33,977 bases of DNA from Armatimonadota bacterium (GTDB lineage: Bacteria > Armatimonadota > Zipacnadia > Zipacnadales > VGFC01). The position numbers were made by a program, and so were the translations under genes. The stretch is taken from contig VGFC01000027.1 of NCBI GenBank assembly GCA_016869045.1, positions 1 through 33,977 of the forward strand, read 5' to 3'. This document shows positions 2,287-29,225 of this stretch, piece after piece. A model generated the notes under the pieces. The model had not been told where the DNA came from. It did no database searches and was given only the letters and a program-made list of their open reading frames with translations. How positions within the stretch are numbered: position 1 is the first letter of the stretch; every line of letters starts with the position of its first letter.

Positions 2287-3114
2287 ATGCCTGAACTTCC
2301 GGAAGTGGAGACCATCCGCCGCGACCTGACTCGGTGCCTTGTCGGTCACTCCATCGAGTCGGTGCGGGTGCTCCGCGCCTCAGTGCTGGAGTGCTCCGCG
2401 CGCCGGCTCAAGGCCTCGCTTACAGGTGCGACAGTCCGCGACATTCGTCGCCACGGTAAGGTGCTAATCCTCGATCTCGACTCCGGCCTCAGCCTACTCG
2501 TCCACCTGCGCATGACGGGCCAACTCCTCCTCTGCGGCGACGCCCCGAACCCGCGCTTCGTGCGTGTCGTGTTCCAGCTACGCGATGGCGGCCGCCTCAT
2601 CTACGCCGACTGCCGTGCGCTCGGAAAACTCGAACTGGTGCGCGCCGACCGACTCGCCTCCGCCAAGGCCTTGGCTCGCTTCGGCCCGGATGCGCTGACG
2701 GTCGAGGGTTCGAGCGCCCTCCTTGCCGCCGCACGCCGCCGCGGCACCCCCATCAAGTGCCTGCTGCTGGATCAGTCCGTCATCGCGGGGATCGGCAACA
2801 TCTACGCCAGCGAGATCCTGCACCTCGCGCGCATTGCACCGGATCGTCCGGCCAACACCCTCGCTCCGGCGGAGCTGCGGGCCCTCCAGCGCGCCACGCA
2901 GCCCATCCTCCTCGCCGCCATCGAGGCTCGCGGCACCACCTTCAGCGACTTCCGCACCGGTACCGACGAGCCCGGTGGCTACGCCTCGAAGCTGCGCGTC
3001 TACGGCCGCGAAGGGGAACGCTGCAGGAGACGCGGTTGCGGAGGGACCATCGCGCGACTGGTGCAACAGCAGAGGTCTACATTCTGGTGTCCGGGGTGTC
3101 AGAGGTGGCCGTAG
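2287..3114 (+). CDS. mutM: Formamidopyrimidine-DNA glycosylase (MutM/Fpg)
   Basis: 275 aa, the normal family length. This bifunctional base-excision-repair enzyme removes oxidised purines such as 8-oxoguanine and nicks the resulting abasic site. The N-terminus PELPEVETIRRDL supplies the catalytic Pro and Glu directly after the initiator Met. The helix-two-turn-helix region includes IKCLLLDQSVIAGIGNIYASE (split here only by length: IKCLLLDQSV and IAGIGNIYASE). The C-terminal zinc finger is present, but its first knuckle is C-x4-C (ERCRRRGCGG) instead of the usual C-x2-C; the second is normal (FWCPGCQ). The gene ends 20 bp from a convergent hicA-like gene. Confidence 0.95.
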   Translation: MPELPEVETIRRDLTRCLVGHSIESVRVLRASVLECSARRLKASLTGATVRDIRRHGKVLILDLDSGLSLLVHLRMTGQLLLCGDAPNPRFVRVVFQLRDGGRLIYADCRALGKLELVRADRLASAKALARFGPDALTVEGSSALLAAARRRGTPIKCLLLDQSVIAGIGNIYASEILHLARIAPDRPANTLAPAELRALQRATQPILLAAIEARGTTFSDFRTGTDEPGGYASKLRVYGREGERCRRRGCGGTIARLVQQQRSTFWCPGCQRWP

Positions 3115-16135: not shown

Positions 16136-16546
16136 ATGCCGAAGGGCCGACAGGCACGAATCACGGAGTTGGGGGAGCTGCAATTGCAGGCGCTGGACCG
16201 GCTGTCGCAACTGGGTGAGGGCACGGTGTATGACGTGCTCGACAAGTTCCCGCCGAAGCAACGACCTCGCTACACGACGATGCTGACCGTGCTGCGCAGC
16301 CTGGAGAAGCGCGGGCTGGTGGAGCACCGCACGGAGTCGCGCTCGTACGTGTTCCGACCGACGATCGAGCCGAAGCGCGTGCGCGGGCAGATGCTGATGG
16401 ATGTGCTGGGACGGGCGTTCAGCGGATCGCCGCGGAGCATGGTGGCGACGCTGCTGGACACGGAGGCGGTCACGCCGGAGGTGCTGCAGGAGCTGAAGGG
16501 CCTGATCGCGGAGCGCGAGGCGAGGGGAGATGACGACGAGTCCTGA
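16136..16546 (+). CDS. blaI: BlaI/MecI-family transcriptional repressor
   Basis: 136 aa, ATG start with GAGGTG upstream. The N-terminal winged helix is typical: ELGELQLQALDRLSQLGEG, TVYDVL, then YTTMLTVLRSLEKRGLVEH and a wing strand (TESRSYVFRP). The C-terminal helices (LMDVLGRAFSGSPRSMVATL) dimerise. These repressors bind TAC-rich dyads and are inactivated by cleavage triggered by a BlaR1 membrane protease. Here the dyad lies on the gene's own promoter and the protease gene overlaps its end by 17 nt. Confidence 0.93.
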   Translation: MPKGRQARITELGELQLQALDRLSQLGEGTVYDVLDKFPPKQRPRYTTMLTVLRSLEKRGLVEHRTESRSYVFRPTIEPKRVRGQMLMDVLGRAFSGSPRSMVATLLDTEAVTPEVLQELKGLIAEREARGDDDES

Positions 16547-18494
16547 TCTTGTGCTGCAGAGCATCGTGGGCGTTACGCTGGCAGTACTCCTGGTGTGGGC
16601 GGCTGCCGCCGTTGGGAAGAGGAGGTCTGCGGCGTTCCGGAATGCACTGTGGCGAGGCGCGGTGGCGGCATTCTGGATCGTGCCACTGGTCTGTGTAGCG
16701 GCAGCCGCCCTGCCCGCGCGGACACCGGCGATCCGCGTCCCCGTGCCCGCGGTGCAAGTGGGAGCAGGAGGCGCTCCGGTCGCCCCACAACCTGGAGCCG
16801 CCACCGTCGCGTCCGCCGACGGCCGGGTGCAGGAGGCTCCCGTTCGGTGGACCCGGTGGGCCAGGTGGTCCACCGCGCCCTTCGGACTGGTCGGCGGCGC
16901 CGTGTGGGCCCTCGGCGCACTGACCGGTCTCGGGCTGCTGGTGCGCGATGCGCTGACGGTTCGGCGGCTCCTGCGCACGGCGGCACCCACCGGAGGCCCG
17001 GCGGCTGATCGCGTGGCGCACTGGGCTCGGGCGCTCGGACTCCCGGCACCTCCGCGGAGTGCCATTGCGCCCTCGGTGCGGGTGCCCACCGTGGCCGGTC
17101 TCCGGCGGCCGACGCTTCTCCTGCCAGTTGACCTCCCTTCTCGGGCGCCGGAGACCGACTCGGTTCTCATCCACGAGATCGCTCACGTCCTGCGCGGCGA
17201 CGTGTGGATCCAGGCGGCCGCGTCCGTCACGCGGGTGCTCTGGTGGTGGCATCCGCTGTCGTGGCTCGTCACGGCGCGCCTGGCGAGCACGGCTGAGGAG
17301 TGCTGCGACGACTGGGTCATCTCCGCAACCGGTGACCGTGAGACGTACGCTGGTGCGGTCGTACGTTGGGCGGAAGCGGCGCACACGGCGGGCACCCTCG
17401 CGTGTGGCTCTCGCGGCAGGGCCCTCGTCCGGCGCGTCCGGAGGATTCTCGCCACCACCTCACGGCCGTCGGTGCGCCTCTCGGCATGGGCGAAGGCAGC
17501 GCTCGCGGGGTTGGCGGTCGTCGTGCTGGCCGGCGCAGGCGCCCTCCGGGTCCAGACGGTGCCCGCGGCCACGCTGTCGGTCTCTGCTCCGATCACCATG
17601 GGGGCAGGGACCAGGGCGCCCTCCGTCGGAGCCCCCGGAACCACAATCCACGTGGTCGCCCGGGGCGAGGACGACTCGCGGCCGGTCGGCGCGCGGTGCA
17701 CGATCGCGCTCCGCGACCGGCAACAGGCGCCCGACAGCCACACTGACTACGACGTGGCCGGCGCGGACGGCGACTGGACGATCCGCGGCGTGCGCGCGGA
17801 GACGTGGACGGTCGACGTGACCGCTGAGGGCTACGCCTGGTACGAGGCGGCGAACACACGGCAGGTTCGCGCCACCGGGGAGGGCGAGCAGACGGTTCGG
17901 CTCACGCTCTCCCGGGGCGGGACGCTCACCGGCCGCGTCGTCGCCGACGACACCGGCGAACCGATCCCCCGCGTGCTGCTCACCAGCGGCCAACTGGCCC
18001 TGAAGCGGGACGAGACGGACGCCAACGGCCGCTACACGCTGGAGCATGTGGCCCCCGCACCCCAGGTGGTGGAGGCGTACTGGACGCCGGGCTTCTACGT
18101 CGGTCGACGGAGCGCGGAGGTGACGGGCAAGGCCGCGGAGACGGTCACTGTCCCGGACATCCGACTGCCGCTCGGCGGGATCATCGAGGGTCGCGTACAA
18201 CTCCCGCCGGAAGGCTGCGGGGAGTGCCGGGCGCTCGTGACGGTCACCTCCGAGCGCCCGGTGGCTCCTGACCTCTTCCTCGATGTGTCCTACCCGAGCC
18301 CTGCGTCGAGCCGCACCTTCCGGCTCGGCCCACTGCCGCCGGGGTCCTACACCATCCACGCCAAGGTGTCCCACGGCAAGGGCCCGCATGTCACGCCTCC
18401 GCACGAGTGGACAGGCCGACTGACCGGGGTCACGGTCAAGACGAAGCAGACGGTGCAGAACGTCGTCGTCGCGGCCGGGCCGCCGGCGCCCTAG
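16530..18494 (+). CDS. blaR1: BlaR1-like M56 metalloprotease with carboxypeptidase-regulatory-like sensor
   Basis: 654 aa. ATG lies within the end of blaI, after GAGGGGAG. Membrane helices near 9-29, 41-61 and 117-138 precede the M56 zinc protease motif HEIAH (215-219, LIHEIAHVLRGD) and the downstream ECCDDWVI. A fourth helix is near 322-340. In classic BlaR1 the extracellular C-terminus is a beta-lactam-binding PBP-like domain. Here it is replaced by about 300 residues of two or more carboxypeptidase-regulatory-like beta domains (GTLTGRVVADDTGEPIPRV and GGIIEGRVQLPPEG). The signal sensed is therefore probably not a beta-lactam. It should cleave, or lead to cleavage of, BlaI. Confidence 0.88.
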   Translation: MTTSPDLVLQSIVGVTLAVLLVWAAAAVGKRRSAAFRNALWRGAVAAFWIVPLVCVAAAALPARTPAIRVPVPAVQVGAGGAPVAPQPGAATVASADGRVQEAPVRWTRWARWSTAPFGLVGGAVWALGALTGLGLLVRDALTVRRLLRTAAPTGGPAADRVAHWARALGLPAPPRSAIAPSVRVPTVAGLRRPTLLLPVDLPSRAPETDSVLIHEIAHVLRGDVWIQAAASVTRVLWWWHPLSWLVTARLASTAEECCDDWVISATGDRETYAGAVVRWAEAAHTAGTLACGSRGRALVRRVRRILATTSRPSVRLSAWAKAALAGLAVVVLAGAGALRVQTVPAATLSVSAPITMGAGTRAPSVGAPGTTIHVVARGEDDSRPVGARCTIALRDRQQAPDSHTDYDVAGADGDWTIRGVRAETWTVDVTAEGYAWYEAANTRQVRATGEGEQTVRLTLSRGGTLTGRVVADDTGEPIPRVLLTSGQLALKRDETDANGRYTLEHVAPAPQVVEAYWTPGFYVGRRSAEVTGKAAETVTVPDIRLPLGGIIEGRVQLPPEGCGECRALVTVTSERPVAPDLFLDVSYPSPASSRTFRLGPLPPGSYTIHAKVSHGKGPHVTPPHEWTGRLTGVTVKTKQTVQNVVVAAGPPAP

Positions 18495-18579: not shown

Positions 18580-19722
18580 ATGGCCCAACCCGAACAGCAA
18601 ACCCATGCGTACACTCCCGGTCTGCGCGTGACCGGGTTTGCGGTTCTCCGCCGCGAGCGGCGCCTGCCGCTCCCCGGTAAGGTGCACGTCACCGTGGGGC
18701 AGGAGGTGACAGCCGACACCGTCGTCGCCGCGGCTGAGCTGCCCGGCGACGTGGTCTCCGTCAATGTCGCCAACAAGCTGAGCTGCATGGCCAATGAAGT
18801 GCCCAAGCTGGTGAAGGTCGCCGAGGGCGACAGGGTCACTGCGGGCGACGTGCTCGCCGAGACGGCGGGTTGGTTCGGGCGCTTCAAGACGGCGTGCGAA
18901 GTTCCGGCGGACGGGACCGTCGAGACGATCAGCGGCGTGACCGGGCAGGTCCTCATCCGGCTGAAGCCGGTGCCCATTGAGTTGGCGGCCTACGTTGACG
19001 GGACGGTCGTCGAGCTGATCGGCGAGGAGGGCTGCGTGGTCGAGACCCGCGGCGCCCTGGTGCAGGGAATCTTCGGCCTGGGTGGCGAGACGTTCGGCGA
19101 GCTGCGGATGCTGGTCAATGGCCCCGGCGAGCCGCTGCCGGCCGACCGGATCGGCGCGGACTGCGCGGGGCGGATTCTGGTCGGCGGCGCGTTCGTCACG
19201 CACGAGGCGTTGGACGCGGCTCGCCGGGCCGGCGCTCGAGGGATCGTGGTCGGCGGCATGGATGCGGAGGACGTGGACCGCCTGCTGGGTCGCCCGCTCG
19301 GAGTGGCGATCACCGGGCATGAGGAGATCGGCCTGACCATCGTCTGCACCGAGGGCTTCGGCGCCATGCCGATGGCGGAGCGGACGTTCCGGTTGCTCCA
19401 GGAGCGAGACGGCCGGCAAGCCTCGGTGAACGGAGCGACGCAAATCCGCGCGGGGGTGATCCGGCCCGAGGTGATTGTGCCCGATCTCCAGGCTGCCGGA
19501 CAAGGTGCCGAGGCGGCGGAGGGGGAACAGGGCCTGCGCGTCGGCAGCCCGGCCCGCGTGATCCGCCCGCCGTACTTCGGGGCGATCGTCACGGTAAGGG
19601 AGCTGCCGGAGGAGTTGCAGCAGATCGACACCGAAGCCAAGGTGCGCGTGCTGGTCGCGGAACTCCCGAGCGGGGAGCAAGTGACCCTCCCGCGCGCGAA
19701 CGTGGAGCTGATCCAGCAGTGA
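18580..19722 (+). CDS. Barrel-sandwich and KOW-like protein, first gene of an uncharacterised membrane operon
   Basis: 380 aa. The N-terminal part has two hairpin-type motifs like those of RnfC and biotinyl/lipoyl barrel-sandwich domains (LPLPGKVHVTVGQEVTADT and VAEGDRVTAGDVLAE). A central alpha/beta region follows (RILVGGAFVTHEALDAARR, ARGIVVGG, GVAITGHEEIGLTIV). The C-terminus is KOW/SH3-like (SPARVIRPPYFGAIVTV then VTLPRANVELIQ). There is no signal peptide or TM, so it is probably a cytoplasmic peripheral subunit. No good ribosome site is seen before ATG 18580, so the start is uncertain. Its TGA overlaps the next gene's GTG. I do not know a characterised homologue. Confidence 0.75.
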   Translation: MAQPEQQTHAYTPGLRVTGFAVLRRERRLPLPGKVHVTVGQEVTADTVVAAAELPGDVVSVNVANKLSCMANEVPKLVKVAEGDRVTAGDVLAETAGWFGRFKTACEVPADGTVETISGVTGQVLIRLKPVPIELAAYVDGTVVELIGEEGCVVETRGALVQGIFGLGGETFGELRMLVNGPGEPLPADRIGADCAGRILVGGAFVTHEALDAARRAGARGIVVGGMDAEDVDRLLGRPLGVAITGHEEIGLTIVCTEGFGAMPMAERTFRLLQERDGRQASVNGATQIRAGVIRPEVIVPDLQAAGQGAEAAEGEQGLRVGSPARVIRPPYFGAIVTVRELPEELQQIDTEAKVRVLVAELPSGEQVTLPRANVELIQQ

Positions 19723-21137
19723 CCGGCCTCCCACGACCACTCCCGCCCTTGCGCGTCGCAGCCTGCCTCGCAGCCCTTCTTGTCGCCGGGACCCTCTGCC
19801 TGGCTCAACAGCCGCCGCCCGTCATCCCGGACGCCGAGACCTCGACGCCGGGCCGTGAGGCGACCGGGGAGCCCCCCGCCGCCGCGCTCTCCCCCACCGA
19901 CGTGCGAGCCGAGTTGCCCAAGGATGAGGAGACGGGGAAGCTGACGGACGACGCGGGGGCCGAGGCCCTCATCTCGTGGCAGGCACCCACTGCACCGCCA
20001 CCGCCGGGCAAGGAGTTGAAGGGATACCGCATCTACCGGGCGACCGGCGGCGGCGAGTTCCAGGGGCTCCTGGAACCCGTCACGAAGCCGGATGCGATCA
20101 CCAAGGAGGGGGAGGCGCCGCGTCTGGGCAGCACCGTCTCGGACCTGTGGACGTGGCACACGTACCGCTTCAGGGTGGCGGCCCTCTACGGGGAGCCGGG
20201 CGACCGGCCCTGGTACACGCGAGGGCAGGTCAAGCCCGAAGCGGACCCCGAGCTTGGGGAGCCATACTGGGCTGACGAAGTCCTCTCCGAGAGCGTGTCG
20301 GACCCGATCCGCACGCACGGCAAGTGGTTCCGGGTGGACCGCACGAATGTGCTGGTCGGGGTCGTGCTCTTTGCGGCGGTGGTCATCTGGCTCATCTACC
20401 ACGCCCGGGCCGGGCGGCACATCTACGTTCGACCGATTGCGGGCATGGAGGCCATCGACGAGGCCATCGGTCGCGCGACGGAAATGGGCAAGCCGATCCT
20501 GTTCGTCTCCGGGCTTGCCGGGCTCGGTTCGATCTCCACGATCACCGCCATGACCATCCTCGGACGGGTCGCCCGTCGGACGGCGGAATACGAGACGCCG
20601 CTCCTCGTGCCGTGCGTCGATCCGCTGGTGATGTTGGCTGCTCGGGAGATCGTGCGGGAGGCGTATCTGGACGCCGGCAAGCCGGACGCCTACCGCGAGC
20701 AGGACATCTTCTTCATGACCGACCGCCAGTTCGCGTATGTCGCCGGCGTGGACGGCATCATGTTGCGCGAGAAGCCTGCGGCGAACCTCTACATGGGTGC
20801 CTTCTTCGCCGAGGCCCTCATATTGGCCGAGACAGGCTCGGTGACCGGAGCCATCCAGATTGCCGGGACGGACTCCGACACCCAGATCCCGTTCTTCGTC
20901 ACAGCCTGCGACTACACGCTGATGGGTGAGGAGCTGTACGCCGCGACCGGGTACCTGTCGCGGGAGCCGATGCTGCTCGCGCAACTGCGCGCCCAGGACC
21001 TCGGGAAGGCCTTCCTGGGAGGCCTGTTGGCGCTGGGGACGCTGGCGGCTACGGCCGGGGCGCTGTTCCTGGCCTTCAAAGTGACCGGTCCCGGCCACTG
21101 GATCGACCTCGCGCTGAGCCTGGTTGAGCCCAAGTAG
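19719..21137 (+). CDS. Signal peptide, FnIII-like and membrane protein of unknown function
   Basis: 472 aa. GTG overlaps the upstream stop as GTGA. The signal peptide is about residues 12-29 (ending LAQQ). A fibronectin-III-like domain follows (ALISWQAPTAP, LKGYRIYRATGGGEFQGL, WHTYRFRVAALYG), then one TM (about 207-226, VLVGVVLFAAVVIWLIYHA). A conserved-looking cytoplasmic domain comes next (GKPILFVSGLAGLGSISTI, YETPLLVPCVDPLVMLAAR, YMGAFFAEALILAETGSV, IAGTDSDTQIPFFVTACDY), then a final TM (about 439-457). From memory this may correspond to a Pfam DUF (DUF6754-like), but that is unverified. It is the likely core of the operon. Confidence 0.78.
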   Translation: MTGLPRPLPPLRVAACLAALLVAGTLCLAQQPPPVIPDAETSTPGREATGEPPAAALSPTDVRAELPKDEETGKLTDDAGAEALISWQAPTAPPPPGKELKGYRIYRATGGGEFQGLLEPVTKPDAITKEGEAPRLGSTVSDLWTWHTYRFRVAALYGEPGDRPWYTRGQVKPEADPELGEPYWADEVLSESVSDPIRTHGKWFRVDRTNVLVGVVLFAAVVIWLIYHARAGRHIYVRPIAGMEAIDEAIGRATEMGKPILFVSGLAGLGSISTITAMTILGRVARRTAEYETPLLVPCVDPLVMLAAREIVREAYLDAGKPDAYREQDIFFMTDRQFAYVAGVDGIMLREKPAANLYMGAFFAEALILAETGSVTGAIQIAGTDSDTQIPFFVTACDYTLMGEELYAATGYLSREPMLLAQLRAQDLGKAFLGGLLALGTLAATAGALFLAFKVTGPGHWIDLALSLVEPK

Positions 21138-21168
21138 GGGAGCCCGGTCTCCACGGGAGACGCCGACG

Positions 21169-21795
21169 GTGAAGGTCCGCGTTCCGCTTCTCCTGACGTT
21201 GGTTACGGCGATCGTGATGGCGCTCACGACCTTCGTGCCGCACCGTCTGGGCGACTACGCGTCCACCGAGCTGAGCCAGTGGTTGTCGATCATGGGGGGG
21301 ATGGGCCTCGTCCTCGGCCTGATCAGCCTTGTCCAACGACACCTGCGCCGCGTCCTGCGCCGGCAGCACGACTGGCCCTACAGCGGCGTCACGCTCGTCG
21401 GCTTCCTCGCGATGGCGGCCATCGGTGTGGGCTGGGGCATTCAGGAAGGGACGCCGTTTGACTGGGCCTTCAAGAACATCTACACGCCCCTCGAGGGGAC
21501 GATGTTCTCCGTGTTGGCCTTCTTTGTCGCCTCGGCGGCCTTCCGGACGTTCCGCGCCCGCTCCGTGGAGGCGACGCTGCTTCTTCTGGCGGCCCTGCTG
21601 GTGATGTTCGGACGGGTGCCGCTTGGGGAGATGATCTTCAAGCCGAGCCCGGATATCGCGGAATGGATCATGTCGGGCCCGGCGCTGGGGGCCAAGCGGG
21701 CCATCATCCTGGGGGTCTCACTGGGGGCCATCGCGATGAGCCTGCGGATCGTCCTGGGCATCGAGCGCTCACACCTCGGTGGGGACGGCGAGTGA
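21169..21795 (+). CDS. Polytopic membrane protein of unknown function
   Basis: 208 aa from GTG 21169 (GGGAG about 12 nt upstream). About six hydrophobic helices can be seen: VPLLLTLVTAIVMALTTFV, WLSIMGGMGLVLGLISLV, GVTLVGFLAMAAIGVGW, MFSVLAFFVASAAF, ATLLLLAALLVMF and AIILGVSLGAIAMSLRIVL. It has few charged residues within helices and no transporter signature. It starts 31 bp after the FnIII/membrane gene and ends 6 bp before the next, so it is firmly within the operon. Confidence 0.8.
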   Translation: MKVRVPLLLTLVTAIVMALTTFVPHRLGDYASTELSQWLSIMGGMGLVLGLISLVQRHLRRVLRRQHDWPYSGVTLVGFLAMAAIGVGWGIQEGTPFDWAFKNIYTPLEGTMFSVLAFFVASAAFRTFRARSVEATLLLLAALLVMFGRVPLGEMIFKPSPDIAEWIMSGPALGAKRAIILGVSLGAIAMSLRIVLGIERSHLGGDGE

Positions 21796-21801
21796 CGGAT
21801 C

Positions 21802-22629
21802 ATGACCCTCGATAGGCTGCTGCATCTGGACCGGCGGATCATCTTCGCGCTCATCGCGGTGGCGGTGGGCGTGCCCCTGGCTTCCGGTGCCCGCATCGAC
21901 CCCGGCCGCAACCGACGCAGTGAGGATGTCTACAACCACATCGAGCAGCTGAAGCCGGGCTCGGTGGTCGTCATCGCTTTCGACTACGGACCCTCCTCCA
22001 TGGCTGAGTTGCAGCCGATGGCCGTTGCGATCGCGCGCCATGCCCTGAAGCGCAACCTCCGGGTCGTCGGACTGACGCTGGACGCCGCCGCGCCGATCCT
22101 CATGGAGTCGGTGCTCAACCGCGTCGGCGAGGAGCTGGGCAAGGAGGACGGCGTGGATTACGTCAACCTGGGCTTCAACCCCGGTTACACGGCGGTCATT
22201 GTGGGGATGGGCACGGACATCAGCGCGCAGTACCGCACGGACTTCAAGGGTCGGGCCTACGGGTCGCTGGAAGCCACCCGGGGCCTGCGCAACTACGACG
22301 ATATCGGCCTGGTGGTCGATCTGGCCTCCAGCAACACGCCGACTGCGTGGGTGCAGTTCGCCCACCTGCGGTACGGCGCCAAGGTCGCGGCGGGCGTGAC
22401 GGCGGTCATGGCGCAGGATTACTACCCGTACCTCCAGTCGAAACAGCTCATCGGCCTGCTCAACGGCATGAAGGGCGCGGCGGAGTACGAGAAGCTTGTG
22501 AATGCGCCGGGGGACGGCATGGGGGGCATGGTGGCCCAGTCGTGCTCCCAGGTCCTGATCATCCTGCTGGTGGTGTTTGGCAACACGGTCTACTTCCTGC
22601 ATCGGCGACGGCTGCGCCGCAACCGCTAA
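21802..22629 (+). CDS. Two-TM protein with Rossmann-like soluble domain, unknown function
   Basis: 275 aa. A membrane helix near 12-29 and another near 248-265 flank a soluble alpha/beta domain. The domain opens with GSVVVIAFDYGPSSMAELQ then PMAVAIARHALKRN, continues RVVGLTLDAAAPILMES and DYVNLGFNPGYTAVIVGM, and ends YYPYLQSKQLIGLLNGMKG then AAEYE. I recall hypothetical proteins with the same FDY-PS, LGF/W-PG and PYLQSGQL-GL-GGM-GAAEYE landmarks in other bacteria and archaea, none characterised to my knowledge. It is probably a key subunit with the flanking polytopic proteins. Confidence 0.8.
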   Translation: MTLDRLLHLDRRIIFALIAVAVGVPLASGARIDPGRNRRSEDVYNHIEQLKPGSVVVIAFDYGPSSMAELQPMAVAIARHALKRNLRVVGLTLDAAAPILMESVLNRVGEELGKEDGVDYVNLGFNPGYTAVIVGMGTDISAQYRTDFKGRAYGSLEATRGLRNYDDIGLVVDLASSNTPTAWVQFAHLRYGAKVAAGVTAVMAQDYYPYLQSKQLIGLLNGMKGAAEYEKLVNAPGDGMGGMVAQSCSQVLIILLVVFGNTVYFLHRRRLRRNR

Positions 22630-22652
22630 CTCACGAGTCCGCGAGGACGGCC

Positions 22653-23354
22653 ATGCCCGAGCTCATCTTGGGACTCTCCACGAAGGCGCTGGGCATCTGG
22701 CTGGCAGTCTTCCTCACGCTCGCCATCTACAGCTTCCTGTACAAGGACAACCCAATCTACAAGTTCGCGGAGCACCTGTTCGTGGGCACGTCCGCGGGCT
22801 ACGCGGTAGGACTCACGTACAACCAGGTGGTTCTGCGGCTGGTCGTGGACCCGCTCTTCAGGCCGGCCGCGGTGAACCTGCTGGCCCCCAAGTACCTGGT
22901 CATCGTCCCCACCCTCCTGGGCGTCATGATGTTCTTCCGCTTCAGCCGTCGGTATGGGTGGCTGGCCCGCTGGCCGATCTGCATCGTGATGGGCTGGGGC
23001 GCCGGCGTCGGCATCCCCGGGGCGGTCCAGGACATCCTGGCGCAGACTCACAGCACGATGCTGCCGCTTGCGCCGTTCGACGCCGGGGCGCGCACCTTCG
23101 CGTGGTGGGAAGGGGTCACCGGGCTGATCCTCGTGGTTGCGGTGATCACGACGCTGTGCTACTTCTACTTCTCGAAGGAGCACAAGGGCGCATTCGGTGT
23201 GGCAGGCCGAGCGGGGATCTACTTCCTGATGATCGCCTTCGGGGCCAGTTTCGGGAACACGGTGATGGCCCGCATCTCGCTGCTCATCGGACGGATGCAG
23301 TTCATGATCTACGACTGGTGGCCTCTGGTGGTCGGCCTGTTCCGCAGAGGCTGA
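22653..23354 (+). CDS. Polytopic membrane protein of unknown function
   Basis: 233 aa, ATG with GAGGACGG upstream. Six or seven helices are visible, starting LGIWLAVFLTLAIYSFLY. A short motif KDNPIYKFAEHLFVGTSAGY sits at the first loop and second helix, and LIVVAVITTLCYFYF-type helices follow (actual: GLILVVAVITTLCYFYFS). The glycine-rich stretch IVMGWGAGVGIPGAVQDIL may line a cavity. It may be a channel or transporter-like subunit partnering the 21169 and 21802 products. No characterised family was recognised. Confidence 0.8.
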   Translation: MPELILGLSTKALGIWLAVFLTLAIYSFLYKDNPIYKFAEHLFVGTSAGYAVGLTYNQVVLRLVVDPLFRPAAVNLLAPKYLVIVPTLLGVMMFFRFSRRYGWLARWPICIVMGWGAGVGIPGAVQDILAQTHSTMLPLAPFDAGARTFAWWEGVTGLILVVAVITTLCYFYFSKEHKGAFGVAGRAGIYFLMIAFGASFGNTVMARISLLIGRMQFMIYDWWPLVVGLFRRG

Positions 23355-23410
23355 GCGACCGCGTCTCCTCTTGCCCGGCCGTCACACACGCTCGTAGGCA
23401 GGTGTGGCCC

Positions 23411-23908
23411 ATGAGAGACGTACTCCGGCGGAAGCTACCTAAGACCCGGGGATGGTACACGGGCATCATCCTGGGGATCCTGGCGCTCATTGCCCTCATC
23501 GTATGGCTGATCTGGCGGTCGATGATGGCGGAGAGCCCGCAGCGGACCGTCGAGGCGGCGATCGACGCTTCCCGAACCAGCGACTTGGTCGCCCTGCGCC
23601 AGTGTCTCAGTGCAGAGTCGCTGGCGCATCCGGGGACGGAGGGCTGGCTCAAGCAGTTCGCGGCTGCGCTGGCGAGGCAGGGCGTAGAGATCACGGAGGT
23701 GGATATTCTCCGCGAGGCCGCGACCGTTGTGGTGAGCGTGCCCCATCGCGGCGCAACCGGAGGGCAAGAGCGGACCGAGGTGGCGGTGAAGCTGGTTCGC
23801 CAGAGAGACATCTGGCTGATCGACCTGGAGCCGACGATGGCCTCGCAGAACCTGCAGTTCTGGCAGGCCGTGGCGCTCGAGCAGGCTCAGGAGACGGGGA
23901 CGCGGTGA
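23411..23908 (+). CDS. Single-TM protein with NTF2-like extracytoplasmic domain
   Basis: 165 aa, ATG with AGGTG upstream. A basic N-terminus and a membrane helix (about 18-36, IILGILALIALIVWLIW) are followed by ESPQRTVEAAIDASRTSDL, the usual opening helix of NTF2-like/DUF4878-type domains that accept small ligands, then strands VEITEVDILREAATVVVSV and WLIDLEP. It may be an accessory subunit of the operon. Its stop is one base from the next gene's ATG. Confidence 0.75.
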   Translation: MRDVLRRKLPKTRGWYTGIILGILALIALIVWLIWRSMMAESPQRTVEAAIDASRTSDLVALRQCLSAESLAHPGTEGWLKQFAAALARQGVEITEVDILREAATVVVSVPHRGATGGQERTEVAVKLVRQRDIWLIDLEPTMASQNLQFWQAVALEQAQETGTR

Positions 23909-23909
23909 G

Positions 23910-24839
23910 ATGAGAGGCCGGCTGGCGGCGGTGGCGCTGGTTGTCTTGGCGGCGCTCGCGGCGGGCGTCGTGTGGAGGCTCTACGGCAACGACATCCGCC
24001 TCACTCTCGCGCTGCGCAAGTGTAGTTCGGCATGGGACAGGTTGCGCGACTACGAGAGCGACTTCCGCGTGGACGTGAAGCTGGGCCCCCTGAACCCCTC
24101 CGTGAAGGGCACAGTCGCCTATCTGAAGCCCCACTCCTACCGACTGCAGCTCGGCGATCCGGGCAAGCCTGACTGCACCGTCGTGAAGACGGCTCAGAAC
24201 GCGTACGTCTCGTTCCCGGGCACTCGATTGCCGTTGCTTGAGGTTGAGTTCGCGCCGGAGGCCGAGGCGGACTCCGTCGTGGCCGGTCAGTTGCCGCGGC
24301 CGTGGGTCGAGCAGTTGGGCCAGGGAAGCGAGTTCCAGTGGATTGGCCGGGATGAGGTGAACGGCCGCGCGTGTACGGTGTTGGAGCTTGTGCCGCCGTC
24401 AGAGACTACGGCGGACGGCGGGCTGATCGTGGCGCCCGCGCTGGGCAAGCAGTTCACGGGCATCCCCCTCGTCGGGAGCTGGCAACGCACGCGGGTCTAC
24501 CTCGACCGCAAGACGGGCCTGCCCATCCGTGGCGAGGCGCTAAAGAGCAACGGCGCCCTGCTCTTCTCCTGGACTGCGAGCAACGTGCGCATTGACCAAG
24601 GGCTTTCCGCCAGCGACTTCGGGCTCCCCTCGGCGGGTCAGCGGACCGTGAACCGCACGTACGACCCCGCACACCCGGAGCGCCTCTTCCTGCCCCCGGA
24701 GAGGGGGCGCTCGCTTCTTCGGCGCCTGGGAGATGCGTTGGAGGAAGGGGCCAAGGAGTACCTGGAGGGCGAGGTGGGCGATCGTGACGGCTCGGGGCGG
24801 AGCCTCGGCGAGCACGCAATCGACCAGCTGACGGACTAG
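23910..24839 (+). CDS. LolA/RseB-like fold protein with N-terminal anchor
   Basis: 309 aa. A signal anchor covers residues 5-21. The body begins with an outer-membrane-lipoprotein-sorting pattern: CSSAWDRLRDYESDFRVDV, VKGTVAYLKPHSYRLQL, ACTVLELVPPS, then TRVYLDRKTGLPIRGE. LolA-like half-barrels bind lipids or lipoproteins in the periplasm. There is no lipobox. The C-terminal 45 residues are charged and helical (EEGAKEYLEGEVGDRDG). Placement suggests the operon works at an envelope carrying lipid or lipoprotein cargo, but this is inference. Confidence 0.72.
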   Translation: MRGRLAAVALVVLAALAAGVVWRLYGNDIRLTLALRKCSSAWDRLRDYESDFRVDVKLGPLNPSVKGTVAYLKPHSYRLQLGDPGKPDCTVVKTAQNAYVSFPGTRLPLLEVEFAPEAEADSVVAGQLPRPWVEQLGQGSEFQWIGRDEVNGRACTVLELVPPSETTADGGLIVAPALGKQFTGIPLVGSWQRTRVYLDRKTGLPIRGEALKSNGALLFSWTASNVRIDQGLSASDFGLPSAGQRTVNRTYDPAHPERLFLPPERGRSLLRRLGDALEEGAKEYLEGEVGDRDGSGRSLGEHAIDQLTD

Positions 24840-25735: not shown

Positions 25736-25910
25736 ACAACTAGGAAAGCGCTTGCCGGGAGGCCCCTGAGGAGGGGGCCCCCGGGCCTGTGTAACCGTCC
25801 GCCGATACCGGACGCATCGAAGCAATAGACGCAGCAACAGACGAACCATGGCCCACCAGGGTCTCCGCTCGGGCGCATCGAGCGGAACGTTGCAGCAGGA
25901 GGCGAACCGC
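25736..25910 (+). promoter_or_regulatory. Structured 5' leader of the Big_1 gene
   Basis: Three potential hairpins: a GC-rich stem with two bulges at 25754-25786 (core GGCCCC/GGGGCC), GTCCG/CGGAC at 25797-25813, and TCCGCTCG/CGAGCGGA at 25864-25886. A ribosome site AGGAGG lies at about 25897-25902. No known riboswitch signature was recognised, including the c-di-GMP-I core. An in-frame ATG at 25848 is a less likely start. Confidence 0.45.
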
Positions 25911-28900
25911 ATGTCACGGTCCGGCACCCTCCGGTCGCGCGTGGCGGTCTTTTTGTGTTTCACCCTCGTCTTCACACTCATATCCCCCCTCCTGGCGGCT
26001 CCTGAGCAACGCAGTGACGCGCGGGTGCGCGTGGCCGTCGGCGTCTGCACAGACGGCAGCGGCACGGCGCCTGATGCCGTCGAGGCCCTTCAACGCGCGC
26101 TGCAGAGGTCGCTCGCGAGCGAGCGCGGTCTCCGCCTGGTAGGCCTGGACAACGGCGATCCCCAACGCGTGCTCTCGGCGCGGATCGCCTCACTGACCGC
26201 CGACGGTCGGCGGCCGGCAAGGGTCGAAGTCCTGGCGGAATACACGGACCCGGTCTCCGGGGCCGTAGCCTACCGCACGTCCGTCAGCGCCGAGGGGGCG
26301 GTGCGCCCGGGCGAGGAGCAAGTGGCGCGGGTCGAGCGGGCGGTCGAAGCCGCGGCCAGCCAGATCGTGGCTCAGGTCGCGAAGGCGGAGCAGCTGCGCG
26401 GGCACATCATCGGCACCCCGCGACCCAATGTCGTGATCGTGGATGTGGGCGCGAGCGTTGGCCTCACGGCCGGGAGCGAGCTGGAGGTCCTCCGCGACGG
26501 AGCCGTCATCGCTCACGTGCGGATCGAGCAGGTCTCGGACAACACTTCGACGGGTCGGCTGTTTGATGTCCAGCCGGGGGCCGAGCTCCGGGGCGGCGAT
26601 CAGGTGCGCGTCTTGTCGCTGGCGCCGGCCAAGGAGACGCCAAAGAAGCATCGGGGCAACAGCACCGCGAAGATCGCGGCCATCGTCCTGGGGGCCGGTC
26701 TGCTGGCGGCGCTACTGATGGGCGGAGGCGGCGGAGGGGGCGGCAACAACCAACTGACACTGGTCGCGGTGGATGCGCAACTGCCGGCCGACGGCACGAG
26801 TCAGACGACGATCACCGCGACCCTCCAAGACAGCAAGGGACGGCCGCTTCGCGACGGCACGAAGGTGGAGTTCGAGACAACCCTCGGCATGATCTCCCCG
26901 GGGCAGGTGGCTCTGGCGAGCGGCCAGGCCGAGGCGACCCTCACCGCCGGCACCACGGCGGGTACCGCCATCGTGCGGGCGCGGTCCGAAGGGAAGACGG
27001 CCATCGTGCAGGTCGTCTTCACGGCCGGACCGGGTCAGGCGCAACCGGCAGGCCTGACGGTCATCGCCGGCTCGCGGGAGATCCCCGCGGACGGAACGAG
27101 CAGCACCAAGATCACCGCGGTCGTCACCGACCGTAACGGCAACCCCCTGGCCGACGGCACGGACGTGCAGTTCCGTACGTCGCTCGGCATGATCACTCCC
27201 GCGGTCGCCAAGACCTCCGGCGGCCTCGCCGAAGCCGAGCTGCGAAGCGGCACTGACGCGGGCAAGGCCGTTGTCTCGGTGAAGGTCGGGAGGCTCAGAG
27301 ACCAGGTCAGGGTGCAGTTCGTCGCCGCCGGCGATACGGGCCGGCGATCGCTCTATCTGACGCGCTCCAAGTCCAGCATCCCGGCGGATGGTCAGAGCAC
27401 GGCGACTATCGAGGCAACCGTCAAGACCTCCGACAACAACCCCGTGCCTGACGGGACGCCGGTGCAATTCGCGAGCACCGCGGGAACGATCTACCCGGCC
27501 CGTGTAGGCACCGTGGATGGCGTGGCAACGGCAACCCTGCGCAGCGACCCGACGCCCGGCACCGCCGTCGTCACAGCCACCGCCGGGCAGCTGACGGCAA
27601 ACATCACGGTCAGCTTCGTGGGTGGCGGCGGGGCGGACGTGGCCAGCATCTTCCTGACGCGCACCCCCGCGGAGATCCCCGGCGACGGCGTGAGCACCTC
27701 CGCCCTGACGGCGACCGTGCGTGACGCGAACAACAACCCGGTGGCCGATGACACGCCGGTGATCTTCACCTCCACGCGCGGGCTGGTCGCGCCCAGCATC
27801 GCCTACACGCTGAACGGTCGCGCGCAGGCGACGCTGCAGAGCGAACCGACCTCTTCGGACCTCACCGCGACGGTGACGGCGATGGCCGGGTCGCAGCAAG
27901 CGGTAACCACCGTGAAGTTCGTGGGCACCGGCGGCGGACCGACCCAGCTCTCGCTCATCGCCGACCGCACGAACATCCCCGCGGACCGCAAGTCCACGGC
28001 CTCCCTGCGGGCGACGTTGGTGGACGGTACCGGTAAGCCGGTGGCCAATGCGGACGTGCGCTTCACGGCGAGCGCGGGGCAGCTTCAGGCCGCCGGCGGC
28101 TCGGGCTGGGTCAAGCAGCTCACGGTGAAGACCAACGCCCAGGGCATTGCCGACGTCCTGCTGCGCAGCACACTCAACCCGAACACCGCGACGGTCACAG
28201 CCGGCGCGCCGGCCGTGACGACCGACGTGGCCTCGGTGACGGTGGCGTTCACCTCCCTGATCATCCAGAGCGTTGCGGCCGACCCGGCCAGCGTTCCCGT
28301 GGGCGGCAACAAGAGCTCGAAGGTGACCGCCACGATCGTCGATACGCTCGGGAATCCGGCGCCCAACGGGACGGTGGTGCAGTTCTCCATCATCAACCAG
28401 ACGCAGATTCCGTCGGCGACGATCACGCAGTCGGCCTCCACGGCCGACGGGAAGGCCACCGCGATCTTCCGCAGCGGCTCGGAGGTCGGCACAGCGCGGA
28501 TCCGGGTCTTCGTGCCGGCGGCGAACGCCACGAACGATCAGACCATCATCGGCATCACCGCCGGACCGCCCGCCCTGATGACGGTGGCGGCGGACGCCTT
28601 CGTCACGTCGGCCCGTGACCTATCCAAGGCGGTCAAGGTCACGGCGCTCGTTTCCGACCAGTTCGACAACCCGGTGGAGGACGGGACGGTCGTACGGTTC
28701 GACGTCACGCCCGATGCGGGAGGCGTCATCACTGGAACCGGGGTGACGCAGGGCGGGTTCGCGCAGGCCAACCTCTACACAACCGGCTGGGTCGGCGACT
28801 TGGGCGTCGTCGCCTCCACGACGGGTGCGGGCGGCGTGACCGTAGACAACAGCGGGCGGCCGCTGATGATCCACATGGGCGGTGCACCCGCCACCGTAGC

Positions 28901-29225
28901 GATCATCTCGCCCGACCCGACCCTGTACACCCCGGCCTCGCCGCTGGAACTCTACACCGAGGCCGACCAGAAGATCGTGGTGCAAGTGAAGGACATCTCA
29001 GGCGGCCCGGCTGATCCGAACGCGCAGGTGACGTTCCAGACCGACCGGGGCAGCGTCGATCCCGACCCGGCGCCGATCACCGCGCCGCTGGCAGGTACGT
29101 GCACTGCGATCTACCGGTCCGATCAGCCGACTCCGCTCAGCGGAGTGGACCGCATCATCGCCGTGTGCGAGGGAGTGATCTCGAATCCGCTGTACATCTT
29201 CGTGGAGGTGAACCCGGCGCTGTAG
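25911..29225 (+). CDS. Large surface protein with Big_1 (bacterial Ig-like) repeats
   Basis: 1104 aa; ATG 25911 with AGGAGG 8 nt upstream. Signal peptide 1-30. Residues about 36-245 form a periplasmic domain like the FlgT C-terminal/CsgG-related type (VNVVIVDVGASVGLTAGSEL-like segment: NVVIVDVGASVGLTAGSEL). A membrane-like helix (about 252-268) and a Gly run lead to about eight Ig-like units of roughly 95 residues, with landmarks (L/I)PADGxS, TATVxDxxGNPVxDGTxVxF and TxxGxIxP. Big_1 domains occur in intimin/invasin-type adhesins. The C-terminus has no LPXTG, autotransporter or PEP-CTERM sorting signal, so anchoring may rely on the N-terminal helix. Probably an adhesin or a structural envelope fibre. 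Confidence 0.88.
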   Translation: MSRSGTLRSRVAVFLCFTLVFTLISPLLAAPEQRSDARVRVAVGVCTDGSGTAPDAVEALQRALQRSLASERGLRLVGLDNGDPQRVLSARIASLTADGRRPARVEVLAEYTDPVSGAVAYRTSVSAEGAVRPGEEQVARVERAVEAAASQIVAQVAKAEQLRGHIIGTPRPNVVIVDVGASVGLTAGSELEVLRDGAVIAHVRIEQVSDNTSTGRLFDVQPGAELRGGDQVRVLSLAPAKETPKKHRGNSTAKIAAIVLGAGLLAALLMGGGGGGGGNNQLTLVAVDAQLPADGTSQTTITATLQDSKGRPLRDGTKVEFETTLGMISPGQVALASGQAEATLTAGTTAGTAIVRARSEGKTAIVQVVFTAGPGQAQPAGLTVIAGSREIPADGTSSTKITAVVTDRNGNPLADGTDVQFRTSLGMITPAVAKTSGGLAEAELRSGTDAGKAVVSVKVGRLRDQVRVQFVAAGDTGRRSLYLTRSKSSIPADGQSTATIEATVKTSDNNPVPDGTPVQFASTAGTIYPARVGTVDGVATATLRSDPTPGTAVVTATAGQLTANITVSFVGGGGADVASIFLTRTPAEIPGDGVSTSALTATVRDANNNPVADDTPVIFTSTRGLVAPSIAYTLNGRAQATLQSEPTSSDLTATVTAMAGSQQAVTTVKFVGTGGGPTQLSLIADRTNIPADRKSTASLRATLVDGTGKPVANADVRFTASAGQLQAAGGSGWVKQLTVKTNAQGIADVLLRSTLNPNTATVTAGAPAVTTDVASVTVAFTSLIIQSVAADPASVPVGGNKSSKVTATIVDTLGNPAPNGTVVQFSIINQTQIPSATITQSASTADGKATAIFRSGSEVGTARIRVFVPAANATNDQTIIGITAGPPALMTVAADAFVTSARDLSKAVKVTALVSDQFDNPVEDGTVVRFDVTPDAGGVITGTGVTQGGFAQANLYTTGWVGDLGVVASTTGAGGVTVDNSGRPLMIHMGGAPATVAIISPDPTLYTPASPLELYTEADQKIVVQVKDISGGPADPNAQVTFQTDRGSVDPDPAPITAPLAGTCTAIYRSDQPTPLSGVDRIIAVCEGVISNPLYIFVEVNPAL

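Follow-up and report, generated by a model that had tools for sequence, protein, structure and literature searches.

In this study, we describe a set of eight genes, F8, F7, a gene for a MutL-like ATPase and g1 to g5, and consider it fairly probable that they encode an envelope machine in which a cytoplasmic module of the ATPase and g1 sits on a membrane core formed by g2 to g5. Five of the eight parts, g1 to g5, lie in the window (the whole stretch of 33,977 nucleotides that was analysed). Nearly every sampled member of two phyla has the set, which tends to be lost jointly; this points to a cell-envelope machine.

Genes of the window and their products

Open reading frames were called using our own script, and the gene starts in relatives are approximate. 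All seven open reading frames listed in an earlier sequence-only reading of this DNA were recovered at the same positions (Table 1), together with the GTG start of g2 in a 4-bp GTGA overlap with g1 and the intergenic gaps of 31, 6, 23, 56 and 1 bp from g2 to g7.

Table 1. Open reading frames of the gene cluster (gene, positions in the window, strand, features of the product)
g1	18580..19722	+	soluble, without TM helix; barrel-sandwich-like N-terminal region; KOW/SH3-like C-terminal region by eye
g2	19719..21137	+	signal/TM, putatively periplasmic FnIII, TM, putatively cytoplasmic DUF6754 (PF20539) at about residues 200-448, C-terminal TM
g3	21169..21795	+	polytopic membrane protein; about 5 TM (hydropathy); AAFRTFRAR-type conserved motif
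g4	21802..22629	+	two TMs; soluble domain between them (about residues 38-235), putatively Rossmann-like and periplasmic; Q-G-L-G-KGAAEYE motif
g5	22653..23354	+	polytopic membrane protein; FGNTVMAR-SLLIGR motif conserved
g6	23411-23908		ORF in window
g7	23910-24839		ORF in window

The g2 product matched DUF6754 at 379.2 bits against a gathering cut-off of 27 (E 1e-113). The FnIII domain previously ascribed to it was upheld by both profile and model: the g2 profile matched FnIII chains of the PDB with E values down to 4.5e-10 (titin FnIII), and the predicted model (pLDDT 79.7) matched FnIII structures with Z up to 12.3 (2.9 A over 103 residues). The single sequence scored 17.6 of 25 bits with Pfam fn3, below cut-off. 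Searches with the g2 model gave no clear structure match for the DUF6754 fold, because FnIII matches filled the result lists. Judged from positive charges, FnIII would be periplasmic and DUF6754 cytoplasmic.

For g3, g4 and g5, no Pfam or NCBIfam family was found above cut-off. The conserved motif noticed earlier in g4 proved real in an alignment of relatives, in which E69, G124, Q215, G218, G222, G225, G260 and N261 were each at least 97% conserved (96 rows, fetched loci). The AlphaFold2 model of g4 had a pLDDT of 94.5, and its soluble domain matched, by VIA, 1kjn (Z 10.2, rmsd 3.0, 137 residues), CODH epsilon (Z 9.9) and TrkA (Z 9.3); by Foldseek, TM-scores were at most 0.35 among the 50 matches listed. 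The likeness is thus to Rossmann-like domains in general and places g4 in no particular family. The search of g4 against PDB sequences gave no relative up to E 1. Positive-inside reasoning suggests that this domain lies outside the inner membrane.

In predicted models, the order of helices and strands is alike in DUF6754 and the g4 domain. Profile comparison of the two gave E 0.0075 in one direction and 0.016 in the other, and reversed-column controls gave 0.04 to 0.11; the score is not significant because the unrelated pairs g2/F7 and g2/g1 reached 0.014 and 0.028, and paralogy of g2 and g4 is therefore not claimed. Full-length profile comparison of g2 with g4, and profile comparison of g3 with g5, gave no match.

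Conserved motifs in g1 are TEGFG and GATQIRAGVIRPE. The barrel-sandwich assignment of g1 is weak by sequence, with both Biotin_lipoyl (19.2 bits, cut-off 22.1) and RnfC_N (15.1 bits, cut-off 25.6) below cut-off, as was NQRA_N (13.5 bits, cut-off 25). Against PDB sequences, g1 had no convincing relative (best E 0.078).

The inclusion of g6 and g7 in the system is unsupported, because neither had a tblastn relative (E 1e-3) in those of the fetched loci that were searched. Their readings as NTF2-like and LolA-like retain a weak likeness that falls below cut-off, g6 scoring 30.6 of 37 bits with Rv0361_Cterm (NTF2-like/Rv0361-type) and g7 17.1 of 22.3 bits with MucB_RseB (RseB/LolA-type).

Partner genes and conserved gene order

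Three further partners were identified on a different contig of the same genome: an actin-fold (ASKHA) ATPase of about 600 aa, related to MutL/GlmL, and the small proteins F7 and F8. The earlier member list stands for g1 to g5 and had overlooked these three. The MutL-like ATPase (genome G000, L059:7500-9290) matched PF13941 at 425 bits, above the gathering cut-off, over profile positions 1-450 of 450, and its motifs DCGSTTTK, VDIGGATTD and GSGG-LSH are at least 97% conserved (67 rows). It scored below the NCBIfam GlmL cut-offs (NF040745, 222.3 of 475 bits; NF040744, 225 of 600; TIGR01319, 160.2 of 204) and carries a conserved C-terminal extension. Among named proteins it is closest to GlmL and ornithine Or-4, with a weak relation to EutA, and no convincing relative was found among PDB sequences up to E 0.1. 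A URO-D gene follows MutL in the window's genome but was set aside as a member. None was found beside MutL in five other MutL loci, a weak negative because the contig ends near MutL in some of them (L060, L063, L064).

The order g2-g3-g4-g5 was found at 90 of the 96 testable g2 places (fetched loci, three phyla) and, recurring so often, is not due to chance; the recurrence of the first five genes in the same order across phyla, raised in the sequence-only reading, was likewise checked and found. The six exceptions are L028, which is probably a spurious FnIII-only match, L047, which has g1-g2 without g3-g5 after them, and L095, L097, L130 and L139. The full order F8-F7-MutL-g1-g2-g3-g4-g5 was present in 18 of 34 loci from the window's taxonomic order, most of the others being part-only or truncated by the contig end, and also in L072 (window's class) and L125 (second phylum). 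Other arrangements were F8-F7-(g2 to g5)-MutL-g1 (L084, L091), MutL-g1-(g2 to g5) (L098) and, in the third phylum, (g2 to g5)-F8-F7 (L081). Elsewhere in the window's phylum, MutL-g1 usually lies apart from g2-g5; of 18 such places, one had g2 following g1 at a distance of no more than 1.5 kb.

Among 20 loci of the second phylum, hand-picked and mostly with closely placed g1 or g2 matches, 11 carried at least two complete g2-g5 quartets, and in 14 the g2 gene was present two or more times. Two quartets were also found in each of L004, L006 and L007. The g2-g5 core behaves as a single unit, since its tandem duplications comprise all four genes. The g4 tree recovered neither the window's phylum nor the second phylum as a clade; in the g2 tree, the window's phylum outside the window's own group had no sequence.

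Joint presence and absence across genomes

In the window's phylum, genomes were surveyed one by one for g2, MutL and g1; in the second and third phyla the survey covered g2 and g1, and F7, F8 and g3 to g5 were read in the fetched loci only. Of the 151 genomes sampled from the window's phylum, 135 had a relative of g1, as did 111 of 118 in the second phylum and 2 of 144 in the third. All 118 genomes of the second phylum had g2, with g2-g5 often repeated in tandem, and in the third phylum g2 (above cut-off) and g1 occurred in the identical 2 of 144 genomes.

Within the 151 genomes of the window's phylum, 134 had both MutL and g1, 15 had neither and 2 had one without the other (Fisher 1.4e-18); for g1 and g2 the corresponding numbers were 127, 14 and 10 (Fisher 1.7e-12). 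Both Fisher values are overstated because the genomes are kin. When 116 better-quality genomes were considered, the same 8 had none of g1, g2 and MutL. The genomes discordant for g1 and g2 comprise eight having g1 without detected g2, three of good quality (G062, G092, G136), and two having g2 without detected g1 (G046, G149). In addition, G178 has g1 without detected MutL. With its markers near-ubiquitous among the sampled members and mostly lost jointly, the eight-gene set probably belongs to the basic cell-envelope biology of both phyla.

Searches of plasmids by tblastn with the DUF6754 domain and g1 gave no match, and spread by plasmids was rejected. An anti-phage defence system was also considered and rejected, PADLOC giving 0 families at E 0.01 for g1 to g5 and MutL.

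The machine seems to be as yet undescribed. Six of the eight families had no Pfam match above cut-off, and the earlier statement that no characterised pathway matches the first five genes holds. A literature search, with most subscription journals outside its scope, yielded no paper on the eight-gene system, none naming DUF6754 and none placing a MutL/GlmL-like (PF13941) protein in such a context.

The proposed machine, its alternatives and known systems

In the proposed machine, the cytoplasmic module would bind the DUF6754 domain of g2, and the putatively Rossmann-like domain of g4 and the FnIII domain of g2 would lie beyond the inner membrane. The idea of an envelope complex with an outer module is thereby kept, the outer role being better placed by positive-inside reasoning on these two domains than on g6 and g7. 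The ATPase, on binding or hydrolysing ATP, would produce a change at the cytoplasmic face (g1, DUF6754), which the core would relay to the periplasmic domains, so that an envelope step would be driven or gated. We infer a physical complex, ATP coupling and a cellular task for the set; transport, assembly or remodelling is our guess at that task. If so, DUF6754 would gain a function. The gene set itself places a MutL/GlmL-like ATPase in a new context, away from glutamate mutase, with a defined list of partners. More tentatively, and with rather little confidence, we suggest that an ASKHA ATPase powers the membrane machine, the MutL-like protein and g1 driving the g2-g5 core, which would act across the inner membrane by means of two doubly wound domains, DUF6754 inside and g4 outside. 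Such a transporter or energiser would be ATP-driven, without kinship to the ABC, P-type, AAA and Tol/Exb systems, and near-universal in two phyla.

The separation of MutL-g1 from F8-F7-g2-g5 into distinct loci, seen at most sampled places in the window's phylum outside its class, would also suit one process served by two entities, with MutL and g1 as a soluble pair, either an enzyme or a regulator, and with g2 to g5 as a separate membrane complex acting on the same molecule or pathway. We regard this as a minority possibility that deserves attention; linkage in several arrangements across three phyla and joint loss suit a closer tie. GlmL and EutA are reactivating ATPases for B12 enzymes, and kinship with GlmL, Or-4 and EutA could mean that MutL is a reactivating or assembly ATPase, a chaperone that serves the g2-g5 core or the cofactor of that core and is not an engine. 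That role appears improbable, given the scores below the GlmL-family cut-offs and the conserved C-terminal extension, and we know of no cofactor site in g2 to g5, which weighs against it. Furthermore, the glutamate mutase E subunit (PF06368, to which the search among B12 mutases was confined) was found in 0 of 41 genomes with relatives, which argues against a glutamate-mutase reactivase and weakens the mutase-reactivase reading.

The idea of a complex for redox chemistry or carboxylation, of Rnf/Nqr or biotin type and with g1 as an RnfC/NqrA-like subunit, draws on the RnfC_N, NQRA_N and Biotin_lipoyl matches of g1. Every one of these is below cut-off, and the Rnf-type or carboxylase link suggested earlier is unsupported; other Rnf/Nqr subunits had no Pfam match among g1 to g7, no Cys is among the g1 residues conserved at 97% or more, and we consider such a complex very improbable. 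The order of unrelated genes can persist among related genomes, and an old housekeeping operon of functionally unlinked genes might look similar, but the occurrence in three phyla, the rearrangements that keep the link, the tandem duplication of the quartet and the joint loss leave that explanation hardly any probability.

Returning to the eight-gene machine, its parts can be set beside known systems. In the second phylum, NfeD-SPFH-CBS genes separate two g2-g5 quartets in L004 and, judged by eye, in L007; they are not constant members, L006 having a CBS-like gene alone at that place (by eye). RnfC and NqrA are weakly resembled by the N-terminal part of g1, below cut-off, and no further Rnf/Nqr subunit is among g1 to g7. 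Through g2 the set includes a clear member of DUF6754, a family defined as a domain of unknown function. The partner ATPase matches the MutL/GlmL family (PF13941) over the full profile length and retains the ATP motifs, but differs from it in its length of about 600 aa with the C-terminal extension, in the absence of a glutamate mutase E subunit among 41 relatives and in being tied to membrane genes. PilM/GspL-type proteins have an actin fold, lie in the cytoplasm and dock on a platform in the inner membrane. No pilin or secretin was recognised among the eight genes. The likeness to the PilM/GspL type is one of working, as the eight-gene set would likewise combine a cytoplasmic actin-fold ATP-binding protein with membrane proteins that have periplasmic domains.

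Window genes and their predicted products

The seven closely spaced genes that the sequence-only reading had described as a candidate membrane system were confirmed in the window, with the same gaps and overlap. The product of the second gene, g2, carries FnIII and DUF6754 (PF20539, E 1e-113), no Pfam or NCBIfam family above cut-off was found for g3, g4 or g5, and the sandwich-type matches of g1 (Pfam and NCBIfam) were all sub-threshold. The structural model of g4 was good (pLDDT 94.5), comprising a transmembrane (TM) segment, a doubly wound alpha/beta domain and a long TM helix at the C terminus. Among solved structures, those nearest to g4 have generic Rossmann-like folds (1kjn, Z 10.2; CODH epsilon, 9.9; TrkA, 9.3), and many short-chain dehydrogenases scored 8 to 9 in the structure search. 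The g2 model was moderate (pLDDT 79.7); its FnIII is certain, and DUF6754 looks doubly wound as modelled. Arg/Lys residues flank the TM segments: in g4, DRR precedes the first TM and a basic tail follows the last, and in g2 the TM is followed by a basic stretch. This charge pattern suggests that the g4 domain lies outside and DUF6754 inside.

Neighbouring features are listed in the table. A formamidopyrimidine-DNA glycosylase-type gene was also seen near the system in loci L003, L004, L006 and L007 and, by eye, directly after g1 in L084 and L091; this recurrence may be chance.

Coordinates of features in the window and in fetched loci
Location	Feature	Remark
window 2287-3111	formamidopyrimidine-DNA glycosylase gene	
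window 16136-18494	BlaI/MecI-type penicillinase repressor, then BlaR1-type M56 peptidase with carboxypeptidase-regulatory domains	immediately upstream of g1
window 18580-24839	g1 to g7	
window 25848-29222	1125-aa large Ig-repeat surface protein	6 Invasin_D3 and 5 Big_1 stretches
L059:2229-2840	short protein with dense Cys-Asn type repeat (by eye)	upstream of F8-F7-MutL
L100:8679-9311	pseudopilin-like protein (by eye)	between MutL and g1
L004:4074-5944	NfeD, SPFH (stomatin-like) and CBS-domain genes (Pfam)	between two g2-g5 quartets; L007 likewise (by eye)

The eight-gene set in the window's order

Three partners accompany g1-g5: an actin-fold MutL/GlmL-like ATPase of about 600 aa (PF13941; MutL hereafter), in which the three ASKHA nucleotide motifs are conserved; F7, of about 100 aa; and F8, by eye a small membrane protein. 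The tested members of F7 and F8 had no Pfam family above cut-off. Among the 41 genomes of the window's order, DUF6754 was found in 35 and PF13941 above cut-off in 37; some PF13941 matches there were short and weak (about 21-29 bits; the only kind in G020) and probably represent other ASKHA proteins. Read by profiles, with profile F17 counted as F8, the full order F8-F7-MutL-g1-g2-g3-g4-g5 was present in 18 of the 34 fetched loci, others carrying a partial set, often through a contig end. The set is split in the window's genome, with F8-F7-MutL on another contig, C78 (L059). The Cys-Asn repeat protein encoded there is perhaps a modified peptide precursor, and a radical-SAM-looking gene was seen nearby by eye.

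ARRANGEMENTS

Elsewhere in the window's phylum, F8-F7-g2-g3-g4-g5 was found in 20 of the 27 loci fetched around g2 (a second g2 in one, MutL-g1 behind in two) and partially in the other seven. MutL and g1 are usually away from g2-g5 there, yet often near each other; MutL-g1 follows g5 in L084 and L091, both of one family, and precedes g2 in one locus, L098. MutL lay at most 3.5 kb upstream of g1 in 23 of 28 places in the window's class, 12/18 in the rest of its phylum, 11/12 in the second phylum (Zixibacteria) and 1/1 in the third, that of a Bacteriovoracaceae MAG. The genome scan with g4 gave five relatives, four in Zixibacteria MAGs, all with g2-g3-g4-g5 in order (a tandem double in three), and one in the Bacteriovoracaceae MAG, where g4-g5 face a g1 gene, itself adjoining a MutL/GlmL-like gene, and two small genes lie in between. 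Second-phylum loci have as many as three copies of the g2-g5 quartet after MutL-g1, with two or more complete quartets in 11 of 20 selected loci. In the MutL and g1 trees the second and third phyla stood apart from the window's phylum (support 0.98 to 0.99), and both genes have probably descended within each phylum; the g4 tree did not recover this split.

The pseudopilin-like protein (~210-260 aa) was seen in this position, between MutL and g1, in eight loci (L099-L106), the three tested members having no Pfam match. Genes resembling TolQ/ExbB (L138, L139, L141) and TolR/ExbD (L138, L139) were observed by eye beside g1 in the second phylum.

Joint loss and a proposed membrane complex

Across the same 151 genomes of the window's phylum, DUF6754 was found in 129, PF13941 above cut-off in 135 and g1 in 135. 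With MutL scored absent in 13 genomes without a match and in three with short weak matches only (G011, G086, G146), MutL and g1 were both present in 134, both missing in 15 and discordant in 2; for g1 and g2 the counts were 127, 14 and 10 (8 g1 only, 2 g2 only). The Fisher values for both pairs are too small, since the genomes share ancestry and are not independent. In the 116 better genomes (at least 90% complete, at most 5% contaminated), g1, g2 and MutL were all missing in eight, and G062, G086, G092 and G136 were discordant. The eight belong to families f6, f11 and f14; as f6 and f14 also contain genomes with all three, several separate losses are likely. All 118 Zixibacteria genomes have DUF6754, most of them 4 to 6 matches, and 111 have g1; in the third phylum, DUF6754 above cut-off and g1 occurred in the same 2 of 144 genomes, a coincidence with a chance of about 1e-4 for two random pairs, and a third DUF6754 match was marginal, below cut-off. 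In four genomes of genus g72 (G106, G131, G136, G155) the g1 reading frame contains one in-frame TAG, which could reflect recoding, a pseudogene or two ORFs.

DUF6754 and PF13941 are already catalogued families. No publication on the eight-gene set, its distribution or its joint loss was found in the literature searched; we rate the set as new as a system, and its task could yet prove a known one. We propose an inner-membrane complex in which g2-g5 would form the core, MutL and g1 an ATPase module on the cytoplasmic face, and F7 and F8 accessories. Actin-fold proteins of the PilM/GspL type dock on a membrane platform, and proteins of the GlmL/EutA type are ATP-dependent reactivators. The proposed complex may work like the former, a parallel for which no kinship is claimed, and may likewise work like the latter, to which the claimed kinship is limited to PF13941.
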